DNA of 64,000 nt, from positions 1 to 64,000 of the forward strand of contig CAJCBL010000065.1 in NCBI GenBank assembly GCA_903960515.1, read 5' to 3'. Below the pieces are notes generated by a model. It did not search any database and was not told where the DNA came from. It saw only the letters and a program-made list of their open reading frames with translations. A program made the position numbers and the translations under genes. This document shows, one piece after another, positions 20,430 through 60,481 of the stretch. Within the stretch, counting starts at the first letter, position 1, and every line of letters begins with the position of its first letter. The stretch is from an uncultured Verrucomicrobiota bacterium. GTDB taxonomy: Bacteria > Verrucomicrobiota > Verrucomicrobiia > Opitutales > Opitutaceae.

Positions 20430-21257
20430 CTATTCTAGGGGCCGTGAGCCGTGGCAGGCCGGGTAGGCCGAGCAGCCCCAGAACTGAGCTCCAGGGTGGG
20501 CGCCCTTCTTGGCGGTGCGCAAGACCAGTGGTTTCCCGCAGAGCGGGCACTTGGGGGCTTGGGGATTGTTTCCAGTCCGATCGGTCAGTTCCGACCGATC
20601 TTTCCGTGCTCGCTCTGCCACCCTCGCTGCTGCGAGCCGTTCAGTGTAGCCGCCCCCGGCGACGAAGCACTGCTCCAGCCCGGCGATCTGGTGGTCGAGC
20701 AGGTAGTTGGCCTGGTGGATCAGGCAGATGAGCGCATTGGCCATCACCGCTGGATCCGGGTTGTGGAGCCAGTGGGCGTAGGCGGCAGCATCAGTCTGAT
20801 CGGTCCGATCCCACCGATCAGTCGGATCTCTCATTGTACGCCCCACCGCATGCACCTCCTTCGCCTCGGTATCCTCCTTGCTCCATTGCCGCAGCCCTCG
20901 CTGGCGCAGGAAGTCTTCGTAGTCGAGGAGCAGTTCATCGAGGCTGGCCCGCGCCACGTTTACGAGGCGTAGCTCCGTCTGGCTTGAGGCCGCGGAGGCG
21001 CGGCTTCCCTCGGCGATATTCTGCCTGCCGCTACGGGCGGCCTGCACCATCTGGTCCACCGTGCGCGAGCGAGGATCGAGGAAGCGTTCGCAGAAGGTCA
21101 CCGTGCCATCGTAGACGAGGGTGGCTGCGCGGAAGCTCCGCAGGGTGCGGTAACCGCCGCTCGGCCGTAAACGATTGCTGGGTGATCTTTCCGATCGGTC
21201 ATATTCGCCCGATCGGTCCGATCCTGCCTTTTTCGGAAACTGGTCCCTCTCGCTCAT
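20430..21257 (-). CDS. Four-helix-bundle (S23-like) protein with C-terminal zinc finger
   Basis: 275 aa. The N-terminal half matches the four-helix-bundle family related to 23S rRNA intervening-sequence proteins (SFRAATLVYDGTVTFCERF, then RSGRQNIAEGSRASA). The C-terminus is a topoisomerase-type C4 zinc finger (CPLCGKPL...GAQFWGCSAYPACHG). I recall a family of this shape as four-helix-bundle suffix proteins. Three short DRS/TDR-rich peptides interrupt it (around residues 8-24, 130-145 and 225-240); all are encoded by GATCGGTC palindrome clusters. The start at 21257 is fixed by a strong Shine-Dalgarno sequence AAGGAGGT at 21268-21261, rare in this window and a hint of transfer. Role unknown. 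Confidence 0.75.
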   Translation of the reverse strand: MSERDQFPKKAGSDRSGEYDRSERSPSNRLRPSGGYRTLRSFRAATLVYDGTVTFCERFLDPRSRTVDQMVQAARSGRQNIAEGSRASAASSQTELRLVNVARASLDELLLDYEDFLRQRGLRQWSKEDTEAKEVHAVGRTMRDPTDRWDRTDQTDAAAYAHWLHNPDPAVMANALICLIHQANYLLDHQIAGLEQCFVAGGGYTERLAAARVAERARKDRSELTDRTGNNPQAPKCPLCGKPLVLRTAKKGAHPGAQFWGCSAYPACHGSRPLE

Positions 21258-21311
21258 CGCACCTCCTTGCCCGCACTCTGCGCGCGCCACACTGCCCGGG
21301 CAACTGGATAC

Positions 21312-24269
21312 TCACGCCCGGCGCCGGCGGTGCCTCAGCACCAGCCACGCTCCGAAGCCGAGGGCAATCCAGAGCGTTGGAGGTGCCGGGGTCTCTACGA
21401 AATCCAGCGAGGCATTCTGCCCGAGCTTCTGCTTTTCCCCGGCTTCGAGCGCCTTCCATTGTGCGCTGTTCTCGACCACGATGTAGCTGGTCGCCGGAAT
21501 AAGGATCCCACTGGCTCGGCTGGCGGCCACCAGCGCCGGCAACCCATCGCCTGGCGAGCCGGGCGAGCGCTGATGGTCTTGGTGCCGGAGTTGCAGCGCT
21601 ACGGCTTGGCCCCAAGGGCTGTCGGCAGGCCTCGTGACCATGTCGTGCACCGCTCCCCATTGGGCGGTGGCGGAATCGTAGTACTCCAGTGGGTGCTTGC
21701 TGTCGCCGCCGCTGAATCGCAATGCGCGGCCGGCCACCAACGGGCGCACCGAGTCGCCCACGCGAAGCAGCGGCACGGCGCCGGGTTTCCCCTCTCGTTG
21801 GACAACGTGAGTGCCGTCGGTACCGAACTCCTGGAGGTCCAGGGATTGGACTACATCGCACCAGGCCTGGGTGAGCGGCAGTTCAAGCCTGCGCGGTTTG
21901 GCGGTCTTGCCGATGACCACAAAGACCGGGTGCGGGGGAAGCCCGTGCGCGCTTCCCTCCAAGTCCGCTTCGCGATGTTGGCGGAGCGCGTGGGCGAGGG
22001 CGGTGTCGAGCGACAGGCCTCCAGCGGCTGGCATCTGGCGTGGCCAGCCCGCTTGGCCCAGGCCGGGCAACTGCTCAAGCGGCGTCAGCGCGGATACCGC
22101 GTCGGCCACATCGAAGTTCGCCAGGGTGATGCGGGCACGCCGGGCGGCCGGATACTGCGCCTGGAGCCGGGGCAGGATTGCGGCGAGGTCCCCGGCAAAG
22201 GCGTTGTCGGCCGAGCGGTCGATGATGAGGTGCAGGTACGTCTCGCGCTCGACGCCGGGCAGGTGCAGCGCCTCGATTCCGGATACCACTGTGCCGCGCT
22301 CGGCGCGGACGAGCTGCGGCTGCAGCAGCGAAGCTATCCGGTCCAGCACGACCGCCGGGTTGTTGGCAAGCGGTCCGAGGTCGGCCTCGGCGATTCTCGA
22401 TGGCACCAGGAAGTCGATCTCCACCGTAGTTGGGGTTCCGGGATTGATCGGGAACACTCGCAGCTCGAGCTCGGTGGGCGATTTGTAGATGAGCAGGCCG
22501 GGATCGCGGCGTTCGGTGTCGCGGATCATCGAGTAGACCCAGAGCGCGGTCTTCTTCTCCACGATCCTGCCGGGCACGGGCGTGCCGTTGATGTGGAGGC
22601 GGAAGCCGTTCACAAATACGCCGGCTGGCAGCCGCAACGATTGCACGTATTCGGCGGCTTGTCGCTGGTCCGGCGCGTTGTGGGTGAGCGTCAGCGCGAG
22701 GGTGACAGTCGTGGCTGCGCCAGCGACCGGGGCGGCGTGCAGATCGAGCCGGCTGACGTCCACCGTGCGGGGCAGTTCGACAGCGCGTGGGGCCCGGTGG
22801 CGATCGCGCACGCTGCGGGTGCCCCAGAGGCCGAGCCCTTGCTGGAGTGGGTCGTGGTTCTTGTTCGATCCGGCGGCACCGAGGAAGGTTGTCTCCAAGG
22901 TGGCGAGCTTTTCGTCGGGCAGTACGAGGTTGTCGAAGACGAGCCAGCTGTAGAAGTCGGACAGGAGCGGATAATAGATGCCGTTCTTGTAGCTGCGGTG
23001 GCTGGCGAGAGCGCGCCGGAGGTTGCCCAGCGTGCCGGGATAGTGGAGGTCCCGGCTTTCAAGTACTGGGGCGTAGACATGGTCGAGGGCGGCATGTAGA
23101 GCGGCGCGGTCGGCCAGGGCGCGGGTTACGAAGAAGCCGGGCAGGAGCAGGGTGCACAGCACTCCGGCCAGCCAAAGCCGCGTCGCGCTAGGGCCGCTGG
23201 GATGGGCGCGCAGCGACTTGTTGAGCAGGCCCAGGTGCAGGACAAAGAGGAAGGTCGGCGTGAGTACGAGGAAACCGAGGCCGAAGGCGATGATGGCGAG
23301 GATCGACAGCGGGGTGTAGGGCAGGAAGACGAAGAAGAAGTAGAACGAGAACGGGAAGGTGGCGCACAGCAGCAGGAAGCTCAGGCGTGGCCGGCGGGCG
23401 TGTTGGCAGGATGCCAGGAGGAGAATCGCAACGTTGGCTACGGTGAGCGCGTAGACTTCCCATGCTTGGAAATCGACGGGGAAGGGGATCGAGCGGTTGA
23501 GCGCCAAGCCGCCCAGCGGTAGGGCGAAGGCAAACACGGCTATGGCGATGCGTTCGCCTCTCGCGCCCCAGCCCTCGGCCCGGCGCAGAACAAGCATCGT
23601 GACTCGCACGATACCGATGAACATCACGATCCCGAGGGAGACGAAGCCCATGGCGAACAGTACGCCCGCAAAGGGAAGATGGATGACCACGGCGGTCATC
23701 CCGGCAAACAGCAGGTAGAGGGCAATCGGTGCACCTACGCCGAGCCCAAGGTTGATGGCGATGGCTGTACCGGTGTTGGCGGCGGGGCGGCCGCAGGCGA
23801 TGTGCAGTATGCCCAGGAAGAGCGGCAGCATCGCGAAGGTGAACTGGTTGAACAGGAAGCGCTCCTGCGGGTAGATCCAGGCCGTAACCGATGTTGGCAA
23901 CACATCGCTGATACAGGCGATGGCCAGCCAAAGGTAGGCGGCCTGCACCAGCAGGGGCGCCAACCCGCGCAGCGCGTGGGCTACGGCACCGGCGCCGGCG
24001 GGCAGCGGGCGCAGCCGCGAGAACACATAGAATACGAGTGAGCCGAGCAGGCTGCCCAGCCCGGCAAGTCCCAGGAGGTGGGCTACATGGCGCTGGGCGG
24101 CGTTCATGTTGCCCTCGATCAGCAAGTACGCCTGGGTGTTGAGCAGCAGCAGCAGGGCCGACGGCAGAGCCCAGAGCCAGAGGGCGGCCGCAGGCCTTTG
24201 CAGGAAGGCGGGCAGCAAGGGTGTGGCCGGCGGAGTTTCAGGGGGAAGTGCTGGAGCGATGGCGTCCAT
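21312..24269 (-). CDS. MSEP-CTERM-like exosortase target, VIT domain membrane protein
   Basis: 985 aa. About nine or ten transmembrane segments fill residues 25-390. Extracytoplasmic regions include a VIT-type domain (about 500-640; FVNGFRLHINGTPVPGRIV and VEIDFLVPSRI) and a VWA-like region near 680 (LIIDRSAD). The C-terminus is a classical sorting tail: VETPAPPTLW, one hydrophobic helix and a final RHRRRRA. The architecture fits the MSEP-CTERM family, the single dedicated target of exosortase XrtK, but the motif reads ETPAPPT rather than MSEP. It overlaps the exosortase gene by about 32 bases. ATG 24269 is preferred over TTG 24278. Confidence 0.8.
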   Translation of the reverse strand: MDAIAPALPPETPPATPLLPAFLQRPAAALWLWALPSALLLLLNTQAYLLIEGNMNAAQRHVAHLLGLAGLGSLLGSLVFYVFSRLRPLPAGAGAVAHALRGLAPLLVQAAYLWLAIACISDVLPTSVTAWIYPQERFLFNQFTFAMLPLFLGILHIACGRPAANTGTAIAINLGLGVGAPIALYLLFAGMTAVVIHLPFAGVLFAMGFVSLGIVMFIGIVRVTMLVLRRAEGWGARGERIAIAVFAFALPLGGLALNRSIPFPVDFQAWEVYALTVANVAILLLASCQHARRPRLSFLLLCATFPFSFYFFFVFLPYTPLSILAIIAFGLGFLVLTPTFLFVLHLGLLNKSLRAHPSGPSATRLWLAGVLCTLLLPGFFVTRALADRAALHAALDHVYAPVLESRDLHYPGTLGNLRRALASHRSYKNGIYYPLLSDFYSWLVFDNLVLPDEKLATLETTFLGAAGSNKNHDPLQQGLGLWGTRSVRDRHRAPRAVELPRTVDVSRLDLHAAPVAGAATTVTLALTLTHNAPDQRQAAEYVQSLRLPAGVFVNGFRLHINGTPVPGRIVEKKTALWVYSMIRDTERRDPGLLIYKSPTELELRVFPINPGTPTTVEIDFLVPSRIAEADLGPLANNPAVVLDRIASLLQPQLVRAERGTVVSGIEALHLPGVERETYLHLIIDRSADNAFAGDLAAILPRLQAQYPAARRARITLANFDVADAVSALTPLEQLPGLGQAGWPRQMPAAGGLSLDTALAHALRQHREADLEGSAHGLPPHPVFVVIGKTAKPRRLELPLTQAWCDVVQSLDLQEFGTDGTHVVQREGKPGAVPLLRVGDSVRPLVAGRALRFSGGDSKHPLEYYDSATAQWGAVHDMVTRPADSPWGQAVALQLRHQDHQRSPGSPGDGLPALVAASRASGILIPATSYIVVENSAQWKALEAGEKQKLGQNASLDFVETPAPPTLWIALGFGAWLVLRHRRRRA

Positions 24270-24846
24270 GGAATTCAAGGATCAGGTGCAGGGCGATGAG
24301 CGCGGGGAGAAAGACGGCGACTCCGGTGAGCAGATGGATGAACGGCGCGTAAGGGGCGGGCAGGCACGGGATGATCCAGTGGTGCACCTGCGCGAGGGCG
24401 GCGATGCGCAGGGCGTTTATGGTTATGGCAAACGGCAACCCAAGAGCGATTCCGCCAAGTGCAGCCCGCAGAATGGAGCGCCGCCCGCGGGCGAGTCGCC
24501 ATCCCAGCAACGCGGCGACGATGAGGAAGTAGTCGGTTCCGCTGCAGGCGGCGGTAATCAGTACTGGGGTATGCGCGCCGGGGAGCGCCCAGCCGCTCTC
24601 CATGCGCAGAATTGGCGAGCCGGAGACAAGGGCCGCAAGCCGGGCCGCTCCACCGGCGAACAGTCCCATCTCCAGCCGGGGGAAGAGCATGAGCAGGAGC
24701 CCGCTACAGCAGGCGGCCAGGACCCCTGCCGCCACCGCGTGCATTGCGGCGGCGGTCGCCCCCCAGTTGGCGAATACCGCGTCACGGGCGGCCGTCCCGG
24801 GCGCTATTGCCGGCGAAGAGGGCGGGGTAGGGGGAACGGATCGCAT
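24238..24846 (-). CDS. xrtK: Exosortase, XrtK type
   Basis: 202 aa, small like XrtK, with about five or six transmembrane helices. The exosortase/archaeosortase catalytic triad is visible: C101 in ITAACSGTDYF, R147 in INALRIAAL and H171 in FIHLLTGVAVF. Exosortases cut PEP-CTERM-like tails and probably attach the protein to another molecule at the outer face of the inner membrane. The only candidate target here is the adjacent 985-aa protein, matching the one-enzyme one-substrate arrangement described for XrtK. The subtype is inferred from size and partner. Confidence 0.85.
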   Translation of the reverse strand: MRSVPPTPPSSPAIAPGTAARDAVFANWGATAAAMHAVAAGVLAACCSGLLLMLFPRLEMGLFAGGAARLAALVSGSPILRMESGWALPGAHTPVLITAACSGTDYFLIVAALLGWRLARGRRSILRAALGGIALGLPFAITINALRIAALAQVHHWIIPCLPAPYAPFIHLLTGVAVFLPALIALHLILEFHGRHRSSTSP

Positions 24847-48418: not shown

Positions 48419-51400
48419 ATGGGACCCCACTCACCCCTCGCAGGCCCACGGTTGGCGAAATCTCACAGCCTCGCGGCCGCAAGGTCGGAACTGGTGGCGT
48501 TTCCCGCGGATTTGGGCTGCATCCGGCGCACGGCTACAAGGCTGGCCGTTGCAGCGCTCCTGGCGATGCTGGTCGCCACGACAGCGCACGCCGCGCCGCC
48601 TCGGGACTATGCGGTCGGGGTGGCAAAGCTTTCCCAGCTCGGGTTGCCGGATGTGCGACAGGCGAAGTATGTGCAGCTGGATGCCGGCTATGCCGCCGCC
48701 GGGGAGCTCTCCATGTTTGGGGACGAGCTGAAGATGTCCGGCAATGCATGGCTGCTTGCGACCAAGCCGGATGGCACGGCGGTGATGCTGCTGGACCAAG
48801 TGCGCCTTATCGAGGTGGTGCCTCTCGCTCTGGCCGAACAGCGGATGAAGGAGCGGCTTGAGGCGAAGAGCCGGGCCGGGCAGGCGCCCGGCACCGCCCC
48901 GCAGGAACCGGACGAACCGGAAGACTCGCCTTATGTGGTGCCCGGCAAATGGAGGGATGCCGACCTGGCCGCAGACCTTGGCTCGGTGATCGGGTATTTG
49001 GAGAAACCCAACGGCGGAAACGATTACGCCGTAAGACGCAGTGCGGGGCTCCTGTTCCTTTTTGCGGCGCAAGTGCACAGCCGTGGACTGGGTGCAGAGG
49101 CGAACCGATTGATGGCCCTGCTGTTCGAGATAAGCGGAGACAGCCGAATGGTGGTCTCCGAGGCGATAAACCGTATCGCCGATGCCCAGTATCAAGAGGC
49201 CTATCGCAGCTTTGCCGTGAGTGGGAATTGGGCGCAGTACCTCGCTGCGATGGAAGCGCAGGCGGTCCGTTTCGGTTCCGTGTGGAGGCAGGCGCCGGTG
49301 GTGGCGCGAGTGGCGGAGGCGGTCCGGTCCCGCTTGGCGCCCCCGGCGCTGGCTGGCGAGGGGCTCACCGACGAAGATCGGCGCATCGCCGGGCTGTTGG
49401 GGCAGTCGGATGCGGTGGTCTCTCTGCGCCATCCGTTATTCAGCAGTGGCACGTGGGTTTTGCAGGTGCCCGGGCTCACTCCGGGCTCGGCGAAGTCGGG
49501 GCCGCTCGATCTGATCCAGCAGCGTGGCACCGCAGCGATTCCCCTCTTGGTGGCTTTGCTCTCGGATGCGCGCTTGGTGCGCACGACCGGGGGAGTGTCG
49601 GCGCCGTTCCTGCGTTTCAATTTCGACGAGGGCGCGATGAGCGAAGAGGAGATCGAGCGGATGTGGCCCCGCTTCCCGCGGCCGCAGTCGATCGGCGAGC
49701 TCGCACAGCGGATTCTCTCTCCGTTGGTGTTGAGCGAGGAGGAAGCGAGGGGCGAGGAGGGCGCGGTCTCCAACGAGGTGCTGGCGCAGAAGGGCCGGGA
49801 ATGGTATTCGCAACACAAGGGCGAGGATCGTGCGGCGCTAAGGCGGCTGTTTCTGGCCGCGGGGCGGCAGGAGGTCGTCTGGCAGATGATCCGCTCGCCC
49901 GAGGCGGCCGACCGCGAGGCGGTCGAGGCGTATCTGCTCGCGGGCAAGGACCCGCAGGAGCGGCTTTCGCATGTGGTCGATTATGCGCGGGTGAGGGGAG
50001 TGGAGGCCAAGGCCTTTGTGCAGCGCTATGTGGCCGGGCTTCAGAAGACTCTCCCCTCAGGGCCCGGCGCCGGTGCGACCTCCCCCGAGGAGCGCCAGTC
50101 GATCGAGAGGAAAATGGGGGAAGTGATCAAGTTTCTCGAGGAGCTCGTATCGGAAAGGACAGGCACGCAGCAGCTCCAGGAGTTCCTTGCTGTGGAGCAG
50201 CCCTGGAGCGAGCGGAAGCTCCAAATGATCGCGCAGTCGCTGGTGACTAAGCTGGCCAAGGAGGACCCTACGGCGGTGCGCACGGCCCTGCTTCAGGGGT
50301 GCGTGAAGACGAAGGACGATGTTCTGGCGGGTTTTCTCCTGAGTTGCGTCGGCTTCGACCGGGCGGCCCGAATGCGGGCCGAAAGCCAGGAAGGGGCCGG
50401 GGCTACGCCGGCCGAGGAGCCCAAGCTCGAGGCGCACGCGGAGCTTTGGCGGCAGGTGATGGCCCGGCCGCGACATGCGGCCTCGAAGAGCATCTTCGAC
50501 TCCTCGTCCTTGGGTTTTGATGTGGTAGGCGCCTATGTTGTCGAGGGTCTGTATGGGGAGGGGAACCCCGAAAACACCAATCCCGAACTCGCCCAAATCT
50601 TGGGAGAGCGGCTCTACTCGCTCACGGTGCAGCGGGCGCAGGCGCGCCTGGCGGGCAAGCCGGCGGCGGAACTGCCGCGCGTTCCGGACAAGGTCAACGT
50701 AGGTGCCGAGCGCAGGACGGAGATCACCCTCCTATTGCAGGGGGCCACGGCGCAGAACCAGCACGAGTTGAGCGCTCGCTTGAGCCTCGACGAGTTGCTG
50801 GTGATTCCGGAGCTTGTGGCGGCGGATCCGAAGTTGAACCAGAAGCTGGTGGCCGGCTCGCATGTGATTCGCGAGGTGCGGCTGCCGGAGGGGAACGCGG
50901 ACTTGGCCCGGGTGTGTCTGCCCCTCAAGGACAAGGTCCTGGATCGCGCGGCCTTCGAGGCGCTGCTGGCCGAATGCCGCCGGCAGGCGCCGCTGGGGGT
51001 AGATGTATCGGTGATCTTTGAACGCCGCGTGCCGCTGGCCGGTGTAGTGTTGAAGGTGGGCACCGTTGCTGGGCCCAAGCCTACCGCAGCGGCTCCGGAC
51101 AAAGCCGCTCCTGCTGCGCCGGCATTGCTCATCGCGGCGGCCCAGTCCGAGGGCGATGAACCTGTGCGCGGTGTGGCCCAATGGCCGCTCGGTTCGGCAG
51201 CGGCGCTCGCGCCGCCCCCGGCGAAAGCGACCGCAGCCGACGATGACCTGCTGCCGACCAAGGGGGGCTCGTCGCAGTTCGACCCCTCCGTTTCGCGAGA
51301 CGAGGATTTCTGGAAGGGCTTCCTGGAGCTCTTCGCTCCCACCCGGAGCGCCTGCGCACCGTACCAATGTCTCCTGATGTTGCACCGGCCGGAGCCCAAG

Positions 51401-51442
51401 GAGATGGATTCCGCCGAGCAGAGCGTTCTCACCGAGGAATAA
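48419..51442 (+). CDS. Large exported protein of unknown function, first gene of second MoxR operon
   Basis: 1007 aa from the first ATG. The signal peptide lies at 36-58 (RRTATRLAVAALLAMLVATTAHA), so a later start (GTG 48494 or TTG 48512) is more likely. The mature protein begins with a small beta module (about 60-120), then a long helical region with charged linkers (about 450-650), ending in an Ala/Pro-rich segment. No family is recognised. The MoxR start is two bases after its stop. Being the only large secreted unknown of the operon, it may be a substrate or scaffold of the MoxR system (inference). Confidence 0.7.
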   Translation: MGPHSPLAGPRLAKSHSLAAARSELVAFPADLGCIRRTATRLAVAALLAMLVATTAHAAPPRDYAVGVAKLSQLGLPDVRQAKYVQLDAGYAAAGELSMFGDELKMSGNAWLLATKPDGTAVMLLDQVRLIEVVPLALAEQRMKERLEAKSRAGQAPGTAPQEPDEPEDSPYVVPGKWRDADLAADLGSVIGYLEKPNGGNDYAVRRSAGLLFLFAAQVHSRGLGAEANRLMALLFEISGDSRMVVSEAINRIADAQYQEAYRSFAVSGNWAQYLAAMEAQAVRFGSVWRQAPVVARVAEAVRSRLAPPALAGEGLTDEDRRIAGLLGQSDAVVSLRHPLFSSGTWVLQVPGLTPGSAKSGPLDLIQQRGTAAIPLLVALLSDARLVRTTGGVSAPFLRFNFDEGAMSEEEIERMWPRFPRPQSIGELAQRILSPLVLSEEEARGEEGAVSNEVLAQKGREWYSQHKGEDRAALRRLFLAAGRQEVVWQMIRSPEAADREAVEAYLLAGKDPQERLSHVVDYARVRGVEAKAFVQRYVAGLQKTLPSGPGAGATSPEERQSIERKMGEVIKFLEELVSERTGTQQLQEFLAVEQPWSERKLQMIAQSLVTKLAKEDPTAVRTALLQGCVKTKDDVLAGFLLSCVGFDRAARMRAESQEGAGATPAEEPKLEAHAELWRQVMARPRHAASKSIFDSSSLGFDVVGAYVVEGLYGEGNPENTNPELAQILGERLYSLTVQRAQARLAGKPAAELPRVPDKVNVGAERRTEITLLLQGATAQNQHELSARLSLDELLVIPELVAADPKLNQKLVAGSHVIREVRLPEGNADLARVCLPLKDKVLDRAAFEALLAECRRQAPLGVDVSVIFERRVPLAGVVLKVGTVAGPKPTAAAPDKAAPAAPALLIAAAQSEGDEPVRGVAQWPLGSAAALAPPPAKATAADDDLLPTKGGSSQFDPSVSRDEDFWKGFLELFAPTRSACAPYQCLLMLHRPEPKEMDSAEQSVLTEE

Positions 51443-53456: not shown

Positions 53457-55516
53457 ACCTCGTCCTCACCAACGCCTGGCTGCTGCCGCTGGCCGCCCTG
53501 CTGCTCGTGCCGCTGCTGGTGCATCTTTTCGCCCGGGCGCGCCCCCCGGTGTTTCTTTTCAGCTCGGTGGAGTTCCTGCGGCGGATCCTGCGCAACTCCG
53601 TCCGGCTCAAGCGGCCCCAGTCGTTGCTGGTGCTGCTGGTGCGCACTCTGTTGTGCGCGGCGCTGGTGGCGCTGTTCCTTAAGCCGGTGCTGTTCCGGGC
53701 CGGCCGCATCGGAGGCTCGGGTACGCGCAAGGCCGTGGTGCTGCTGGTCGATGCGACCGCCTCGATGGCGGCCGTGGAGGGCACGCAGACGCGCTTTGCA
53801 GCAGCGTGCGCGAAAGGGGCGGAAGTGTTGTCGGAGCTCTCCGGCGACGATCTGGCCAACATCATCTGGCTGGGGTCGCCCAACCGCGCGGAGTTTCCGC
53901 GGCTCTCCGTGAATTTCCCGTATCTCAAGCAGAGGTTGCGTGCGGCCTCGGTCACCACCGAGGCGTCCGATCTGGGCGGTGCGCTCGCCCGGGCGGCGGA
54001 GATGTTGCAGGGCCAACCCGGCGCGGCGGAGCTCTATGTGCTCTCCGATTTCCAGGGCAGCACATGGGGCTCGCAGCCCTTGCCGGCCCTGCCCGGGATC
54101 GCGGTGCACGCGATCAAGATCGGCCGGCGCGAGCTCGGCAATCTGGCGGTCACCTCCCTGGCAGTCGACCCGCTCAACCCGCTGCCGGGCCAGGAGGTGA
54201 CGGTGGCCTGTGAGGTGCGCAATTTTTCCGCGGAGCACAGCCTGAACACACTGTTTTTGCGCGCCGGGGATGCACTCCAAACCCGGGAACTGCGGCTGGC
54301 TCCCGGCCAAAAGGATACGGTGCTGTTCCGGGTGGCGTTGACCACGCCCGGGGAGAAGGCCGTGGCGGTGGCCCTCAGCGAGGATCCATTTCCTTACGAC
54401 AACGAGCGCTGGGCGGTGCTCGAGGTGGTGGAGCATCTGCGCGTGGGCCTTGTAGAGGGCGAGCCGCAGACCTCCGGCTATTGGCGGCGGGCGCTGAGGG
54501 CGCTTGAATGGGTGAAACTGGAGACGCTGGAGGCCGGCCACTTGGCTGAATTCGACGGTGAGGCGCTGTTTCTGGCCGGCTGGGCGGGCGATGCCGAGGC
54601 GGTCGCGCAGGTGCGCCGCTATCTCTCGCGCGGAGGGCTGGTGGTCTGGTCGCCTGCTGCGGATACGCCCGCGGCGGCGATGGCCGCTCTCACTGTGAGG
54701 CCGGCGGTGGCCGCCCCCGGCGCCGCGTCCGCGCCGGCGGCGAGCATGGCTGCGACCGCTACGGAGCCGCTGCGGCTGGAGAAGCTGCCGCTGCCGCTGC
54801 ATCTCACGGTCGTCGACCGGGCGAATCCAATCTTCAAAGTCTTCGCCGATGGGCTTTATGGCGATCCCACGCGTACTACCTTCAAGGGGCGGGCGCACTT
54901 GGCCGCCGATGTGCCGGCGGGGGGAAAGGCGATTCTCAACTACGAGGATGGAGTGCCGGCCCTCACGGCCTTCGTCGACCCGGGCTGCCTGCTGCTGTGG
55001 AATCTGCCGCTGCAGCGCGAATTCAGCGATTGGGCGGTGCAACCGGAGTTCCTGCCCTTCCTGGGCGAAATGCTCTTTCACTACCGGCGGCAGACCTGCG
55101 AACGCCGGATGCATCGCTTCGCCACCGGCCAGAGCCTCACCCGTGAGTTCGAGGGCGAGGTGCTGGCGGAGGATGTGAAGCTGGAGTTCATCGGCCAGCC
55201 GGTGCCAGTGCGCCGTCAGGTCGCCGACCATCGCACCGAGTTCGCCACTACGGAGGCGCGCCTCCCCGGGCTCTACTCGTGGTATTACCGCGGGGCCCTG
55301 CTGGAGCGTCAGGCCGTGAATTTCCCCGCTGTCGAATCGGACCTGCATGCACAGGACGAGATCAAGCTGGGTAGTCAGGACTTGGTGGCGCTGCGCGGAG
55401 ACCAGTCCATCCGCAAGATGCAGGAGGGCTCCCCGCTATGGCCGCAGTTGCTGCTGCTCGCCGTGGCGGGTGTGGTATTCGAGGGCTTGCTGCTCGCATG
55501 GAAGGACAAGCCATGA
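53453..55516 (+). CDS. BatA-like membrane protein with VWA domain
   Basis: 687 aa. The N-terminal double-helix BatA domain (about 5-30 and 57-75; WLLPLAALLLVPLLVHLFARARPP cut short here to its first part in meaning) is followed by a VWA domain with VVLLVDATASMAAVEG (DxTxS). A CARDB-like beta domain lies near 245-330, and a glutamine-amidotransferase-like fold about 360-430. A final helix at about 665-683 leaves a short tail. These proteins are periplasmic receptors of Bat-type clusters in Bacteroidota, Planctomycetota and Verrucomicrobiota. ATGA overlaps at both ends. Confidence 0.85.
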   Translation: MNLVLTNAWLLPLAALLLVPLLVHLFARARPPVFLFSSVEFLRRILRNSVRLKRPQSLLVLLVRTLLCAALVALFLKPVLFRAGRIGGSGTRKAVVLLVDATASMAAVEGTQTRFAAACAKGAEVLSELSGDDLANIIWLGSPNRAEFPRLSVNFPYLKQRLRAASVTTEASDLGGALARAAEMLQGQPGAAELYVLSDFQGSTWGSQPLPALPGIAVHAIKIGRRELGNLAVTSLAVDPLNPLPGQEVTVACEVRNFSAEHSLNTLFLRAGDALQTRELRLAPGQKDTVLFRVALTTPGEKAVAVALSEDPFPYDNERWAVLEVVEHLRVGLVEGEPQTSGYWRRALRALEWVKLETLEAGHLAEFDGEALFLAGWAGDAEAVAQVRRYLSRGGLVVWSPAADTPAAAMAALTVRPAVAAPGAASAPAASMAATATEPLRLEKLPLPLHLTVVDRANPIFKVFADGLYGDPTRTTFKGRAHLAADVPAGGKAILNYEDGVPALTAFVDPGCLLLWNLPLQREFSDWAVQPEFLPFLGEMLFHYRRQTCERRMHRFATGQSLTREFEGEVLAEDVKLEFIGQPVPVRRQVADHRTEFATTEARLPGLYSWYYRGALLERQAVNFPAVESDLHAQDEIKLGSQDLVALRGDQSIRKMQEGSPLWPQLLLLAVAGVVFEGLLLAWKDKP

Positions 55517-57705
55517 ATCCGATTCTTCCCCTCGAACAGCTCTCGCTCGTGTTTGTGTTGGTGGCCGGTCTGGTGGGCTGGAGCGGGTGGCGCTCGGCGC
55601 AGCGGCTGCGGGGCGGGTTGCGTGGGATTTTGTTGGGGCTGCGGTGGGCCGCCCTGGCGGCGCTGGCGGTGATAGCGCTCAATCCCGGGCATTGGCAGGT
55701 CTCGCGCAGCGAGGCCGGCCGGGAGTGGGCCGTGCTGCTCGACTCCAGCGTGAGCATGGACACCGCAGATGTGGAGGGCGGCACCCGGTGGACCCATGCT
55801 TGCGGCATCGCGCAACGGCTGCGGGCTCCGGAGGGCCAGACCCTGCGCTTCTTCACTTTTGCTGCCGGGGCGCAACCCGTCCCCGCGCCCGCAAAGCTGG
55901 AGGCCGAGGCCTGCCGTGGGGAACAGACGGATATCGTCGGCGCGCTCGCGCAGGTGGCCGAGCGCTACCGCTCCTCCGGCCAGCACTTGGGCGGCATCGT
56001 GGTACTGAGCGATGGACGCCAGGTGCCGGCACGCGGCTACGAGGAGGTGGCGATGGAGCTCCGGGCCGGCCGCAGCCCGGTGTATCCCGTGGTCCTGGGC
56101 GAGGCGGTCAAAACCGTAGACCTGGCCATCGGCACCCGGCGGCCCCAGTACATCGCTTTCGCAGGCCAGAGCTTCACCGTCGACGCCCGGCTGCGCTGCA
56201 CCGGGCTGGCGAATATCCGGCCACGGGTGTCGCTGCTTGATGGCGACGGCAAGGTGCTGGCGGAGAAGCCGGTGTTCATCGGCACCCAGGCGGAGGTCTC
56301 CGTGGCCTTCGAAATCAACGCCGCTGAGCCGGGATACCGCACCTACCGGCTGCGCGTCGAGCACTGGGCGGGCGAAGGCGCCACGACCAACAACACTGCG
56401 GAGTTCGCCGCCTATGTACTGGGCGAGCGGATGAGAGTGTTGCTGGTGGAGGGGGCGCCTCACTGGGACAGCAAGTTCATCGCCCAGCTCCTGCAGGGGC
56501 AGCGGCATGTGGACCTCTCGCTGGTGTATCGACTGGGGCAGGAACGCTATTTCAGCCAGATGGATTCCAGCCTGCTCTCCGCCGAGCAGGCTTGGCGCGA
56601 GCTGCCCGAATCGGTGGAGGCGCTGGCCCGCTACGACCTCATCGTGGCCGGGCGGGGCTTCGAGTATTTCCTCAACCGTGGGAGCATCGGGGCATTGAAG
56701 GAGTTCCTGCGCGTGCGTGGCGGCGGGCTGGTTTTCACCCGCGGCAAGGCCTATGCCGGCGAGCAGCCCGAGCTCGAGGCCCTCGAGCCGGTCTCGTGGG
56801 GGCCGGAATGGAACCAGCGCTTTGTCTGGCAGCCTACCGATGCTGGCGAGGAAGCGGGCTTGTTCAGCGATGGTCTGCCTGGCCGCAGCGATCCGCTCTG
56901 GGCGAAACTGCCGCAGCTCTCGCACGCCTGGCAGACGACGCGCCCGAAGCTGTTCGCCCGCGTGCTCGCCGAGGGCGTGGCGGAGGTGGGCGGCCGCAGC
57001 GTACGGGTGCCGGTGGTGGTGGCCCAACGTTTCGGCAAGGGGCAGGTCGTGGCGGTAAATTCCGAGGACCTGTGGCAATGGGACTTTTTTCCGAAGGTGG
57101 AGGGCGCGAGCGCCGTGTATCGGGACTTTTGGCTGCATCTGATTACTTGGGCGGCGGTGCAGGCCGAGTTCCTGCCCGGGCACGATTGGGCCCTGCACCT
57201 GAGCGAGCCGCGCGTGGAAGTGGGGCAACCGGTGCGCCTGCGCATGGCCTCGCGCCTGCCCGAGCCTGTAGGCGCTCCGGTGGTGCGCATCTGGCGTGGT
57301 GCCAAGCTGGTGGGCGAAGTGGCGCTGGCCGCCGTGCCCGAGCGCAGCGGCGAATACGAAGGGGTGTACTCGCCCACGCTGCCCGGGCTGCATCGCCTGG
57401 AGGCGGCGGTGGGGACGGCTCCGCTGGTCTACGAGACGCTCGCTGTGCAGGCTCCGCCGGCGGAAAGCGACGACGTGAGCCCCGATCGCGAATGGCTCGC
57501 GCAGCTGGCTGCGGCCACGCAGGGGCGCCTTGTCACCGAGGAGGAGATTCAAGGCCTGTTCGCTCCGCCCCCGGCCACCGCGGAGGCGCTCGCCCTCGAC
57601 AACGCCCGGTGGGTGTCGCGCTGGGATCGCGCCCCCTGGTTGCTGCTCGTGGTGGCCCTTCTTGCCTCTGAATGGGTGATACGGAGACGCAATGGCCTCA
57701 CCTAG
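55513..57705 (+). CDS. Large VWA / glutamine-amidotransferase-like membrane protein
   Basis: 730 aa. Helices at about 8-25 and 42-58, then a VWA-type domain (WAVLLDSSVSMDTADVEGG, DxSxS present; VVLSDGRQVPARGY), a beta-sandwich region, and a class I amidotransferase-like domain around 300-500 (LLVEGAPHWDSKFIAQLL; no catalytic Cys seen). A C-terminal helix lies near 707-724. The plan repeats that of the previous protein, suggesting an old duplication and a paired complex in the inner membrane with periplasmic domains. Confidence 0.83.
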   Translation: MNPILPLEQLSLVFVLVAGLVGWSGWRSAQRLRGGLRGILLGLRWAALAALAVIALNPGHWQVSRSEAGREWAVLLDSSVSMDTADVEGGTRWTHACGIAQRLRAPEGQTLRFFTFAAGAQPVPAPAKLEAEACRGEQTDIVGALAQVAERYRSSGQHLGGIVVLSDGRQVPARGYEEVAMELRAGRSPVYPVVLGEAVKTVDLAIGTRRPQYIAFAGQSFTVDARLRCTGLANIRPRVSLLDGDGKVLAEKPVFIGTQAEVSVAFEINAAEPGYRTYRLRVEHWAGEGATTNNTAEFAAYVLGERMRVLLVEGAPHWDSKFIAQLLQGQRHVDLSLVYRLGQERYFSQMDSSLLSAEQAWRELPESVEALARYDLIVAGRGFEYFLNRGSIGALKEFLRVRGGGLVFTRGKAYAGEQPELEALEPVSWGPEWNQRFVWQPTDAGEEAGLFSDGLPGRSDPLWAKLPQLSHAWQTTRPKLFARVLAEGVAEVGGRSVRVPVVVAQRFGKGQVVAVNSEDLWQWDFFPKVEGASAVYRDFWLHLITWAAVQAEFLPGHDWALHLSEPRVEVGQPVRLRMASRLPEPVGAPVVRIWRGAKLVGEVALAAVPERSGEYEGVYSPTLPGLHRLEAAVGTAPLVYETLAVQAPPAESDDVSPDREWLAQLAAATQGRLVTEEEIQGLFAPPPATAEALALDNARWVSRWDRAPWLLLVVALLASEWVIRRRNGLT

Positions 57706-60481
57706 CCCCACGATGAACGCCGAACAGATCACCTTTCTGCGCGCGCTGCGCCGCCAACTCTGGATCTGGCGGGCCGGTGTGCTGCTTGGCTCGTTGCTGC
57801 GGTTGCTGCGGCTGGCGTTGCTGCTTGGGCTCGCGGCGGTAGCGGCCGATCTGCTGCTCGCGCTTTCGCCGCTGGCTCTGCGGCTCGTCGATCTGGCGGC
57901 GTTGGGCGGTATGGTGTTTTTCGTGTTGTGGGAGGCGATCAACTGCCTGGCGCCGTCGTTGCGCGAGGCGGCGGAGCGCGCGGATGCTCTATTGGCCAAT
58001 CCTCGCCAACCGGTGTTGAGCGCCTTCGAACTGCAGCGGGCCGCGCCGGGAGCGAACTGGGGGCGCTTCCTCGTCGAGCGTAGCTTGAGTGCAGGTACGG
58101 CCGCCCTGGCCGGGGTGCGCTGGCAATGTGCGTTTCCCCGGCCCGAGTGTGCGCGACAGGCCCGCTGGTTGCTGGCCGTGGTCGTGCCGGTGCTGGGCCT
58201 GCTGCTCTGGCAGCCTCTCGCGATGGAGACTGCGCTGGCGCGGCTGCTCCACCCCGACGCCGAACGGCCTCCGTTCAGCTCATACACGTTCCTGGTGGCA
58301 CCGGATCCGGTGCAGGTCCTCTACGGTGGCTCGCTTGAACTGACGGTGGACATCGCCGGTGCGCCGGTGCTCCAGCCGGTGGTCCTCCGCACGCGCAAGG
58401 GCGACCAGACCGACGAATCGATTTGTTTCCGTCAGGGCGATACCGTGTTCTCGCAACGGCTTGAGAAGGTGGTGGATTCGCTGGAATTCTGCTTTGCGGT
58501 GGGGCGGGCACGCAGCCCGTGGCAACCCATCGGGATACTGCTGCAGCCGAAGGTGGCGCTCTTGAAGCTGGCGATGGTACCGCCGGCCTACACCGGGCTG
58601 GCGGGGAGCGAAACCGTGCTCAGCCAGGAGAAGATCGAGGGCTACGCTGGATCGAAGGCGCGCTTGCAGCTCACCAGTAATCGGCCGTTGTCGACTGGGG
58701 TGCTCACTCTCGTGCCTTTGGATGGAGTGGGTGGGACGCTCTCCATCGTGGGCCGCAAGGCCGGCGTGCATACCATCGCTTTCGACTGGGAGTTGCACTT
58801 CCCTGCGAGGGTGGAGATCCGCGTGGAGGACGTTCAGGGTACTACGATGGCCGAGCCGTTGCAGCTCACGCAGAAACTCATCCCCGACCGCGCTCCGGAA
58901 GCCTCCATCAGCAGCCCGGCCTCGTACACGCTGGCGACGCCGGCTTCCACGGTGCGCATCCAGGGCAGTGCGACCGACGACCTTGCCCTGCGCGGGGTAT
59001 CGCTGGTGCGCACGATCGCCGGCTACCGAGATCGGAGCCTGCCACTGGGCCCGCTGGCGGCGGAGAGGCAGTATTCCTTTCAGCAGGATTTATCGCTGGC
59101 GCGTATCGGAGTGCTGCCAGGGCAGATCATCGAGCTGTTCCTGGAGGCTCGGGACCACAATCCCGAGCGCCTTGGTGTGGGCGCCTCAGAGATCGTGCGC
59201 CTTGAGATCATTTCAAATGAGGAGTACGCGGAGATCGTGCGCTCGGGGGAAACCCTCGAGCAGTTCGCCGCCCGTTATAGCATCGTGGATGCGGAGTTCG
59301 CGGCCTTCCAGCAGGCGATAGCCGAGCTGACGGCGGAGCTGCAGAAGGCGCAGCCGGACCCCGCGCGGCTGGGGGCGTTGCTGGATCAGGCTCGCAGCCG
59401 TAACCGTTCGGCGCGTGAGCTGTTCCGCTCCCTCGCCGGCGAGTTCCAGGCCTATGCGCTGGAGGAGGGCTGGAAAGGCGCGCTCGAAGAGATTGCTCAG
59501 CGGCTGGAGGGTCAGGGAGAGGTGTTGGCGGGCTTGAAGCCCGAGAGCCCGTCGCTCTCCTCCGTAGTGGCCAAGCTGCGCCAGGAGCTCGAACCGGCGG
59601 AGCGGCAACTTGCCCGGCAGCAAGAGCTGACGGAGGACTTTTTGAAGGCCGGGCGGGCGATGGAGCACGCTGCGCGGTTTATCCAGATCCTGAACCGCCA
59701 ACGCGATCTGGTACGGCTACTGGCACGACGCGAAACGGACGCTTCCGAGAGGGGAAGCCTGCGCGAGCTCGGAAAACGGGAGACGGAGATCCGCCAAGAG
59801 CTGGGCGAATTTGCCGCGAGCCTGGTCAAGACCGCGGAAGGCTTGCCGGCGACAGGAGAGCTGGCCGAGTTGCGCGCCGGCGCATTGGAATTTGCGGCGA
59901 AGCTGGCCCGCTGCGGGGCGGGCGGCCTGCTGGAGCAGGTGGTGGTGGCCGCGCAGAACGAGAACGGCCCGGACATGCTGCGCGATGCGCGGCTGGCCAA
60001 GGAACGCCTCGAGGAGCTGCTCTCGCAGTGCGAGAACTCGGCCTTCGGCGGAATGTGCCGCGGGGGCCTCAAGTTTCAGGTGCGCGACGAGCTGCGCACC
60101 TCGATGGAGCAGATGCTCTCCTCGCTGCTTAAGCGCGGCGGCGACAGCAAGGGCGGAGGGCAGGGCACGGGCAACGCGCCCGGGGGCGGGGTGGGCGACG
60201 GGGCCGATGGCTATTCGGTGTCGGCGCACACTCGTATGAACACTCCGGTGATCGGTCCGGGACGGCGCCAGTTTGTGCAAGGCGGGGGCGCCAAGGGCGG
60301 AGCAGGGCGCGGCAGCGGCGGCCTGGGCGAGGGCAGCGGCGCGCGCACCAAAGATACCCAGACTTCCTCCGGCCACGCGGGGCGGGATTTCAGCGGTCCC
60401 GGCCGCGCTGGGGAGCTGGCCCCCGAGAAGTATCGCCAGGCGCTCGAACGTTATTTCAGCCAACCGGAGGCCAACCCATGA
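57692..60481 (+). CDS. DUF4175-like membrane protein with coiled coil and Gly-rich tail
   Basis: 929 aa. Two or three N-terminal helices (about 28-85 and 155-172), a periplasmic beta-rich middle, long coiled-coil helices (about 500-780) and a Gly/Ser-rich tail (about 815-910). The layout is that of DUF4175-type proteins of Bat clusters. The start at 57692 is supported by GGAG at 57683-57686 and overlaps the previous gene by 14 bases; ATG 57713 is the alternative. Perhaps a stalk or spacer of the membrane complex. Confidence 0.78.
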   Translation: MASPSPTMNAEQITFLRALRRQLWIWRAGVLLGSLLRLLRLALLLGLAAVAADLLLALSPLALRLVDLAALGGMVFFVLWEAINCLAPSLREAAERADALLANPRQPVLSAFELQRAAPGANWGRFLVERSLSAGTAALAGVRWQCAFPRPECARQARWLLAVVVPVLGLLLWQPLAMETALARLLHPDAERPPFSSYTFLVAPDPVQVLYGGSLELTVDIAGAPVLQPVVLRTRKGDQTDESICFRQGDTVFSQRLEKVVDSLEFCFAVGRARSPWQPIGILLQPKVALLKLAMVPPAYTGLAGSETVLSQEKIEGYAGSKARLQLTSNRPLSTGVLTLVPLDGVGGTLSIVGRKAGVHTIAFDWELHFPARVEIRVEDVQGTTMAEPLQLTQKLIPDRAPEASISSPASYTLATPASTVRIQGSATDDLALRGVSLVRTIAGYRDRSLPLGPLAAERQYSFQQDLSLARIGVLPGQIIELFLEARDHNPERLGVGASEIVRLEIISNEEYAEIVRSGETLEQFAARYSIVDAEFAAFQQAIAELTAELQKAQPDPARLGALLDQARSRNRSARELFRSLAGEFQAYALEEGWKGALEEIAQRLEGQGEVLAGLKPESPSLSSVVAKLRQELEPAERQLARQQELTEDFLKAGRAMEHAARFIQILNRQRDLVRLLARRETDASERGSLRELGKRETEIRQELGEFAASLVKTAEGLPATGELAELRAGALEFAAKLARCGAGGLLEQVVVAAQNENGPDMLRDARLAKERLEELLSQCENSAFGGMCRGGLKFQVRDELRTSMEQMLSSLLKRGGDSKGGGQGTGNAPGGGVGDGADGYSVSAHTRMNTPVIGPGRRQFVQGGGAKGGAGRGSGGLGEGSGARTKDTQTSSGHAGRDFSGPGRAGELAPEKYRQALERYFSQPEANP

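Follow-up and report, generated by a model that had tools for sequence, protein, structure and literature searches.

An apparently dedicated exosortase and MSEP-CTERM target pair in an Opitutaceae genome, with a sorting tag that tends to change with the serving enzyme

Sequence comparison indicates that the exosortase and the MSEP-CTERM target encoded together in the window (the whole stretch of DNA analysed, 64,000 nucleotides) are a real, dedicated pair of a known kind. The enzyme falls outside the named exosortase K (XrtK) model, and the tag is specific to the clade. What is usefully new is how tag and partner vary together throughout the family. We consider it probable that the two genes form a cassette that joins a dedicated exosortase to a sole substrate, in which the tag and the active-site neighbourhood of the enzyme change together. 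The features concerned are the following.

24238-24846, minus strand: exosortase gene, 202 aa, XrtK-like, presumed catalytic residues Cys101, Arg147 and His171, loop ACSGTD
21312-24269, minus strand: MSEP-CTERM target gene, 985 aa from ATG 24269 (988 aa if from TTG 24278)
24238-24269, minus strand: overlap of the exosortase and target genes, 32 bp, from the coordinates
23109-24191, minus strand: predicted N-terminal membrane domain of the target, about 11 helices, residues ~30-390 (988-aa numbering), N terminus cytoplasmic
22401-22775, minus strand: VIT domain, residues ~502-626, Pfam PF08487 at 37.5 bits, a beta domain in the AF2 model
21789-22247, minus strand: VWA-like domain, residues ~678-830, aligned to VWA domains by VIA-align with Z 6-7.5
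21315-21395, minus strand: sorting tail ETPAPPTLWIALGFGAWLVLRHRRRRA, residues 962-988, comprising motif, helix and basic end

The gene pair and its two proteins

That the exosortase gene overlaps the gene of the large VIT protein, as the first-pass annotation had it, was borne out. We placed the start of the target at ATG 24269 and not at TTG 24278 because Met4 is invariant in close relatives, and the overlap therefore amounts to 32 bp, which suggests that translation of the two genes may be coupled. In nearly all relatives with readable flanks the exosortase lies upstream of the target, adjacent or near. Verrucomicrobia bacterium IMCC26134, a relative that can be cultured, is among those that have both genes. 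The genes on either side vary between close relatives, and across Verrucomicrobiota the pair is co-inherited while these unconserved flanks change. Furthermore, the patristic distances of the exosortase and target trees correlate (r 0.80, with none of 2000 permutations as high) and 12 of 27 splits are common to both trees (shuffled mean 0.27, maximum 3), an agreement that partly reflects shared species history. The genome of the window holds four further exosortases and 16 loci over the PEP-CTERM cut-off, and the general tails listed from those loci all read PEP. The tail of the present target is unmatched by the PEP-CTERM model TIGR02595 (cut-off 16). A model built on the tails of its clade finds, in the same genome, this target at E 2.8e-16 and nothing else below E 0.7; exactly one strong target was found with it in each of three genomes. 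Adjacency, co-inheritance, unconserved flanks and a single tail-model target per genome thus all speak for the dedicated pair that had been proposed at first reading.

The enzyme passes the exosortase/archaeosortase family model TIGR04178 (35.4 bits, cut-off 23) and fails both the exosortase K model TIGR04287 (20.3 bits against 55, with a match over the last 98 residues) and the general EpsH model TIGR02602 (19.1 bits against 105.55); a Pfam search gave no match, PF09721 included. It had been described as an exosortase of XrtK size, and the size is right, but the curated score rules out filing it as XrtK: the enzyme is XrtK-like by size and neighbour and is not XrtK by the curated model. Among the 33 genomes carrying the target family, the XrtK cut-off is passed in one only (G117, whose target tail reads MSEP), so that the model takes in just a small part of a broader lineage. 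The best score of the window's enzyme does fall in the general family TIGR04178, an outcome named in the first-pass annotation as telling against a dedicated enzyme if the genome also held many targets; the many targets present belong to other exosortases and carry the PEP tag.

The enzyme looks active, as judged from its residues. Indeed, Cys101, Arg147, His171 and Gly175 are the sole invariant columns in 33 relatives with identity down to 15%, and Cys101 is presumed to be the catalytic cysteine, acting with Arg147 and His171. The enzyme was modelled with confidence (mean pLDDT 84.5); comparison of the model with the PDB gave no match with E < 0.3, which is uninformative as to novelty.

The target passes the MSEP-CTERM equivalog model TIGR04286 with 299 bits against a cut-off of 150, and the MSEP motif is absent before its C-terminal helix, where ETPAPP is found instead. 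Membership in TIGR04286 stands without MSEP, because the model is a whole-protein equivalog whose cut-off is passed without the motif. The AF2 model (mean pLDDT 62.8, low to middling), hydropathy and the positive-inside rule agree on about 11 N-terminal helices; in seven relatives, Lys and Arg residues of the membrane domain number 13-20 inside against 4-8 outside. The metal-site motif of the VWA-like domain is incomplete, with DRSAD where DxSxS is expected. The initial description of a multi-helix VIT/VWA-like protein with a sorting tail is upheld by PF08487, by VIA-align and by the succession of motif, helix and basic end. In contrast, the idea that the target is mostly membrane-embedded was wrong and is rejected: by the AF2 model and hydropathy, about 390 of its 988 residues (~40%) lie in membrane helices, and about 600 (~60%) are non-membrane.

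The tag and the enzyme that serves it

In the aligned tails of the target's Opitutaceae clade (seven members), ETPAPP is the normal tag. The first-pass annotation had read ETPAPPT as a variant of an expected MSEP; the letters were right, but ETPAPP is the clade norm, and MSEP, carried by only one of the 35 aligned relatives, is not what should be expected locally. The other relatives carry TPEP, SPEP, KAPAP, SPAP, SPVP, APSP or only DAP, which makes MSEP the odd one out in a variable motif. Since the whole clade has [TA]PAP, we also rejected the view that the tail is an isolated mutant of MSEP. Family-wide, the central residue of the motif is either Glu or Ala; the target tree shows at least five switches between them, and Glu has given way to Ala several times. 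The layout of motif, helix and basic end is kept in nearly all tails.

Ten family members are orphans, by which we mean that the readable 5-8 kb flanks (less at contig ends) contain no exosortase; each of the ten genomes has general exosortases at other loci. Two candidates, G736 and G737, were ruled out as orphans by wider flanks and counted as paired, the exosortase lying 0.8-1.4 kb upstream. The PEP-CTERM cut-off (TIGR02595) is passed by nine of the ten orphan tails against 9 of 42 paired representatives (Fisher P 1.1e-4); the remaining orphan tail is similar to VPDSG-CTERM, also a general type, without reaching the cut-off. The narrower pattern PEP[SAGT]T, found in 13 of 15 general tails from the window's genome, is present in 8/10 orphans against 2/58 paired members (P 2.6e-7). 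The motif classes were defined while viewing the data; an independent check comes from the curated PEP-CTERM model. We relied on this model for the main claim because a home-made HMM of the 15 general tails was noisy on short tails, ranking one paired tail top and several orphans low.

On the tree the orphan state changed three times; in about two of these three changes the tail changes along with it, in none does it clearly go the opposite way, and independent orphan changes with the tag average 2.0 in the same direction and 0.0 in the opposite one. Two orphan targets, those of G546 and G547, are nested among paired members whose tails are DAP, yet theirs read PEPGT and PEPST; the target of G872 has a partner although its group consists of orphans with PEP tails, and its tail reads ASAPS. 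The rule linking partner and tag is not strict, since some paired members (G550, G823, G433 and G288) have tails of PEP-CTERM-like form. As a separate observation, the orphan targets of G546 and G547 (L097 and L098) have two consecutive PEP stretches, APEPP...TPEPGT and SPEPP...APEPST respectively, which looks as if a general tag had been added beside an older motif.

In the enzyme (168 columns, 57 pairs), the columns most associated with the motif Glu are 110, 103, 148, 105 and 146. Four of them are no more than 4 residues away from Cys101 or Arg147, a neighbourhood that takes in 27 of the 168 columns (P 0.002). Column 103 comes first of 247 features when phylogenetically independent pairs are counted, with 3.1 in the same direction against 0.1 in the opposite one. 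At the catalytic Cys, CSG is kept in 18/19 PEP pairs against 9/38 others, the loops reading CSG with PEP and CAATD, CGGSD, CSATD or CSGTD without it. The window's enzyme itself keeps CSG (CSGTD) and with it G103, which of all residues is linked most closely to the PEP motif. Loss of the Glu is accompanied by Asp at Cys+4 (25/39 against 2/19, Fisher 1.7e-4), an association for which the independent pairs are mostly uninformative. A pairing of Arg at Cys+4 with the motif Glu was also considered and is unsupported (4/19 PEP against 2/39 others, Fisher 0.08). The Glu trait has five well-supported independent pairs, a number at which a sign test cannot reach significance, as is the case for the three orphan changes; with only 3-5 independent events on the tree, the associations of tag with partner and of Glu with enzyme columns are suggestive. 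We take it as a lead, not as proof, that active-site residues follow the tag of the partner. The early suggestion that recognition may differ here gains indirect support from this covariation and from the orphan targets.

Proposed working and competing readings

The target would insert in the inner membrane through its eleven or so helices, with the N terminus inside and the VIT-VWA module in the periplasm. The tail helix would then return to the cytoplasm, leaving ETPAPP on the outer side of the membrane, the presumed site of exosortase action. There, Cys101, with Arg147 and His171, would cut at the ETPAPP motif, the enzyme reading the tag of its partner. By analogy with archaeosortase, the new C terminus could possibly be passed to a lipid or a glycan; lipid anchoring is reported for archaeosortase substrates (PMC7157517). 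What does an exosortase achieve on a protein kept in the inner membrane by some eleven other helices? As these hold the target in place, cutting would re-anchor or tether the periplasmic module and not export it.

We propose further, and more tentatively, that possession of a private exosortase frees the tag to leave PEP, with the Cys loop changing, and that the tag reverts to the general PEP-CTERM form after loss of the enzyme; on this account Cys+2 and Cys+4 would contribute to reading the Glu position. We hold this account to be plausible, somewhat short of probable. A one-enzyme, one-substrate cassette whose tag changed several times and whose enzyme was lost in some lineages offers a small and clean set for the study of exosortase tail recognition, and the tendency of the tag to change with the serving enzyme makes the tag-reading rule testable.

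Could the association of tag and partner be an accident of shared ancestry, with a few clades having both states by chance? The modest count of three orphan state changes and five supported independent motif pairs is in favour of such an accident, which we nevertheless regard as rather unlikely: most of the changes run the way that was predicted (2.0 against 0.0 for the orphans, 3.1 against 0.1 for column 103), and the tags of G546/G547 and G872 differ from those of their surrounding clades just as the partner state does. It is improbable, to a further degree, that the exosortase is unspecific, any exosortase of the cell processing the tail, with pairing needed only for co-expression or stoichiometry and the letters drifting by loose recognition. 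The wide variation of the tails (PEP, PAP, PVP, PSP, DAP), the paired tails that pass the PEP-CTERM model and the four further exosortases of the genome would fit such an enzyme. However, loose recognition does not predict that nine of the ten orphans, reliant on a distant exosortase, should be of PEP-CTERM type, and the missing TIGR02595 match of the window's tail and the clustering of motif-associated columns at the active site also speak against it.

A last possibility, very improbable in our view, is that the enzyme is now a membrane partner or chaperone and no longer a sorting protease, the tail being a mere anchor helix. The exosortase-target chemistry of this subtype is without demonstration in the literature searched, and the N-terminal membrane domain is retained, so that losing the C-terminal helix would not free the target; both points would suit a chaperone. 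On the other hand, the invariance of Cys, Arg and His in the relatives down to 15% identity and the preserved layout of nearly all tails argue for a working sorting enzyme.

Known systems and other loci

With the MSEP-CTERM/exosortase K system (TIGR04286 and TIGR04287), the pair shares a target over the cut-off, a small exosortase directly upstream, a multi-helix N-terminal half, a VIT domain and a C-terminal tail; it differs by an enzyme far under the XrtK cut-off and by the tag, ETPAPP and not MSEP. The existence of two curated models, for enzyme and target, implies that the pair was already known to curators; in the literature searched, no paper names MSEP-CTERM, exosortase K or an exosortase with a VIT domain. 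The XrtN system (TIGR04476 and TIGR04477) also has a VIT-domain target with its own exosortase, but the present target, at 68.5 bits over the VIT region, is under the TIGR04477 cut-off of 250, and XrtN is absent among the profile matches of the enzyme at E up to 10. The PEP-CTERM/EpsH system shares the proline motif, helix and basic end and the Cys-Arg-His catalytic layout. It is described as general, with many targets, at a median of eight per genome (Haft 2006, PMC1569441), whereas the window's pair has one target, no PEP motif, and a target that is not a signal-peptide secreted protein.

The non-membrane part of the target resembles inter-alpha-inhibitor heavy chain 1 (PDB 6fpy) in its VIT, VWA and following domain, with a Foldseek E of 2.3e-7 and, over residues 503-941, a VIA-align Z of 9.4. 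Identity is about 11%, with an rmsd of 10 A over 308 residues; the target's metal-site motif is incomplete and the heavy chain, unlike the target, has no membrane domain. The resemblance is one of fold order only. The heavy chains of inter-alpha-inhibitor are linked to glycans through their C terminus, and the parallel with the target is an analogy and nothing more.

Several other loci were noticed. Just upstream of another, XrtQ-like exosortase (179 bits, cut-off 270) of the window's genome (G000, contig C111; L003/L059) is a PEP-CTERM reading frame with the tail APEPATLLLLG, and the two may form a further private pair. In G211, a different VIT protein (L041) with the PEP-CTERM tail VPEPETWAL lies beside a frame that, by eye, encodes a CreD-like inner-membrane protein. 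Within the window, three large reading frames on the plus strand (48419-51442, 55438-57705 and 57692-60481) gave no NCBIfam match at E 1e-8. Finally, the target gene is followed after 22 bp, in the same orientation, by the gene of a four-helix-bundle suffix protein (20430-21290, minus strand; TIGR04258, 69 bits), whose C terminus is zinc-ribbon-like and which stands outside the conserved pair.
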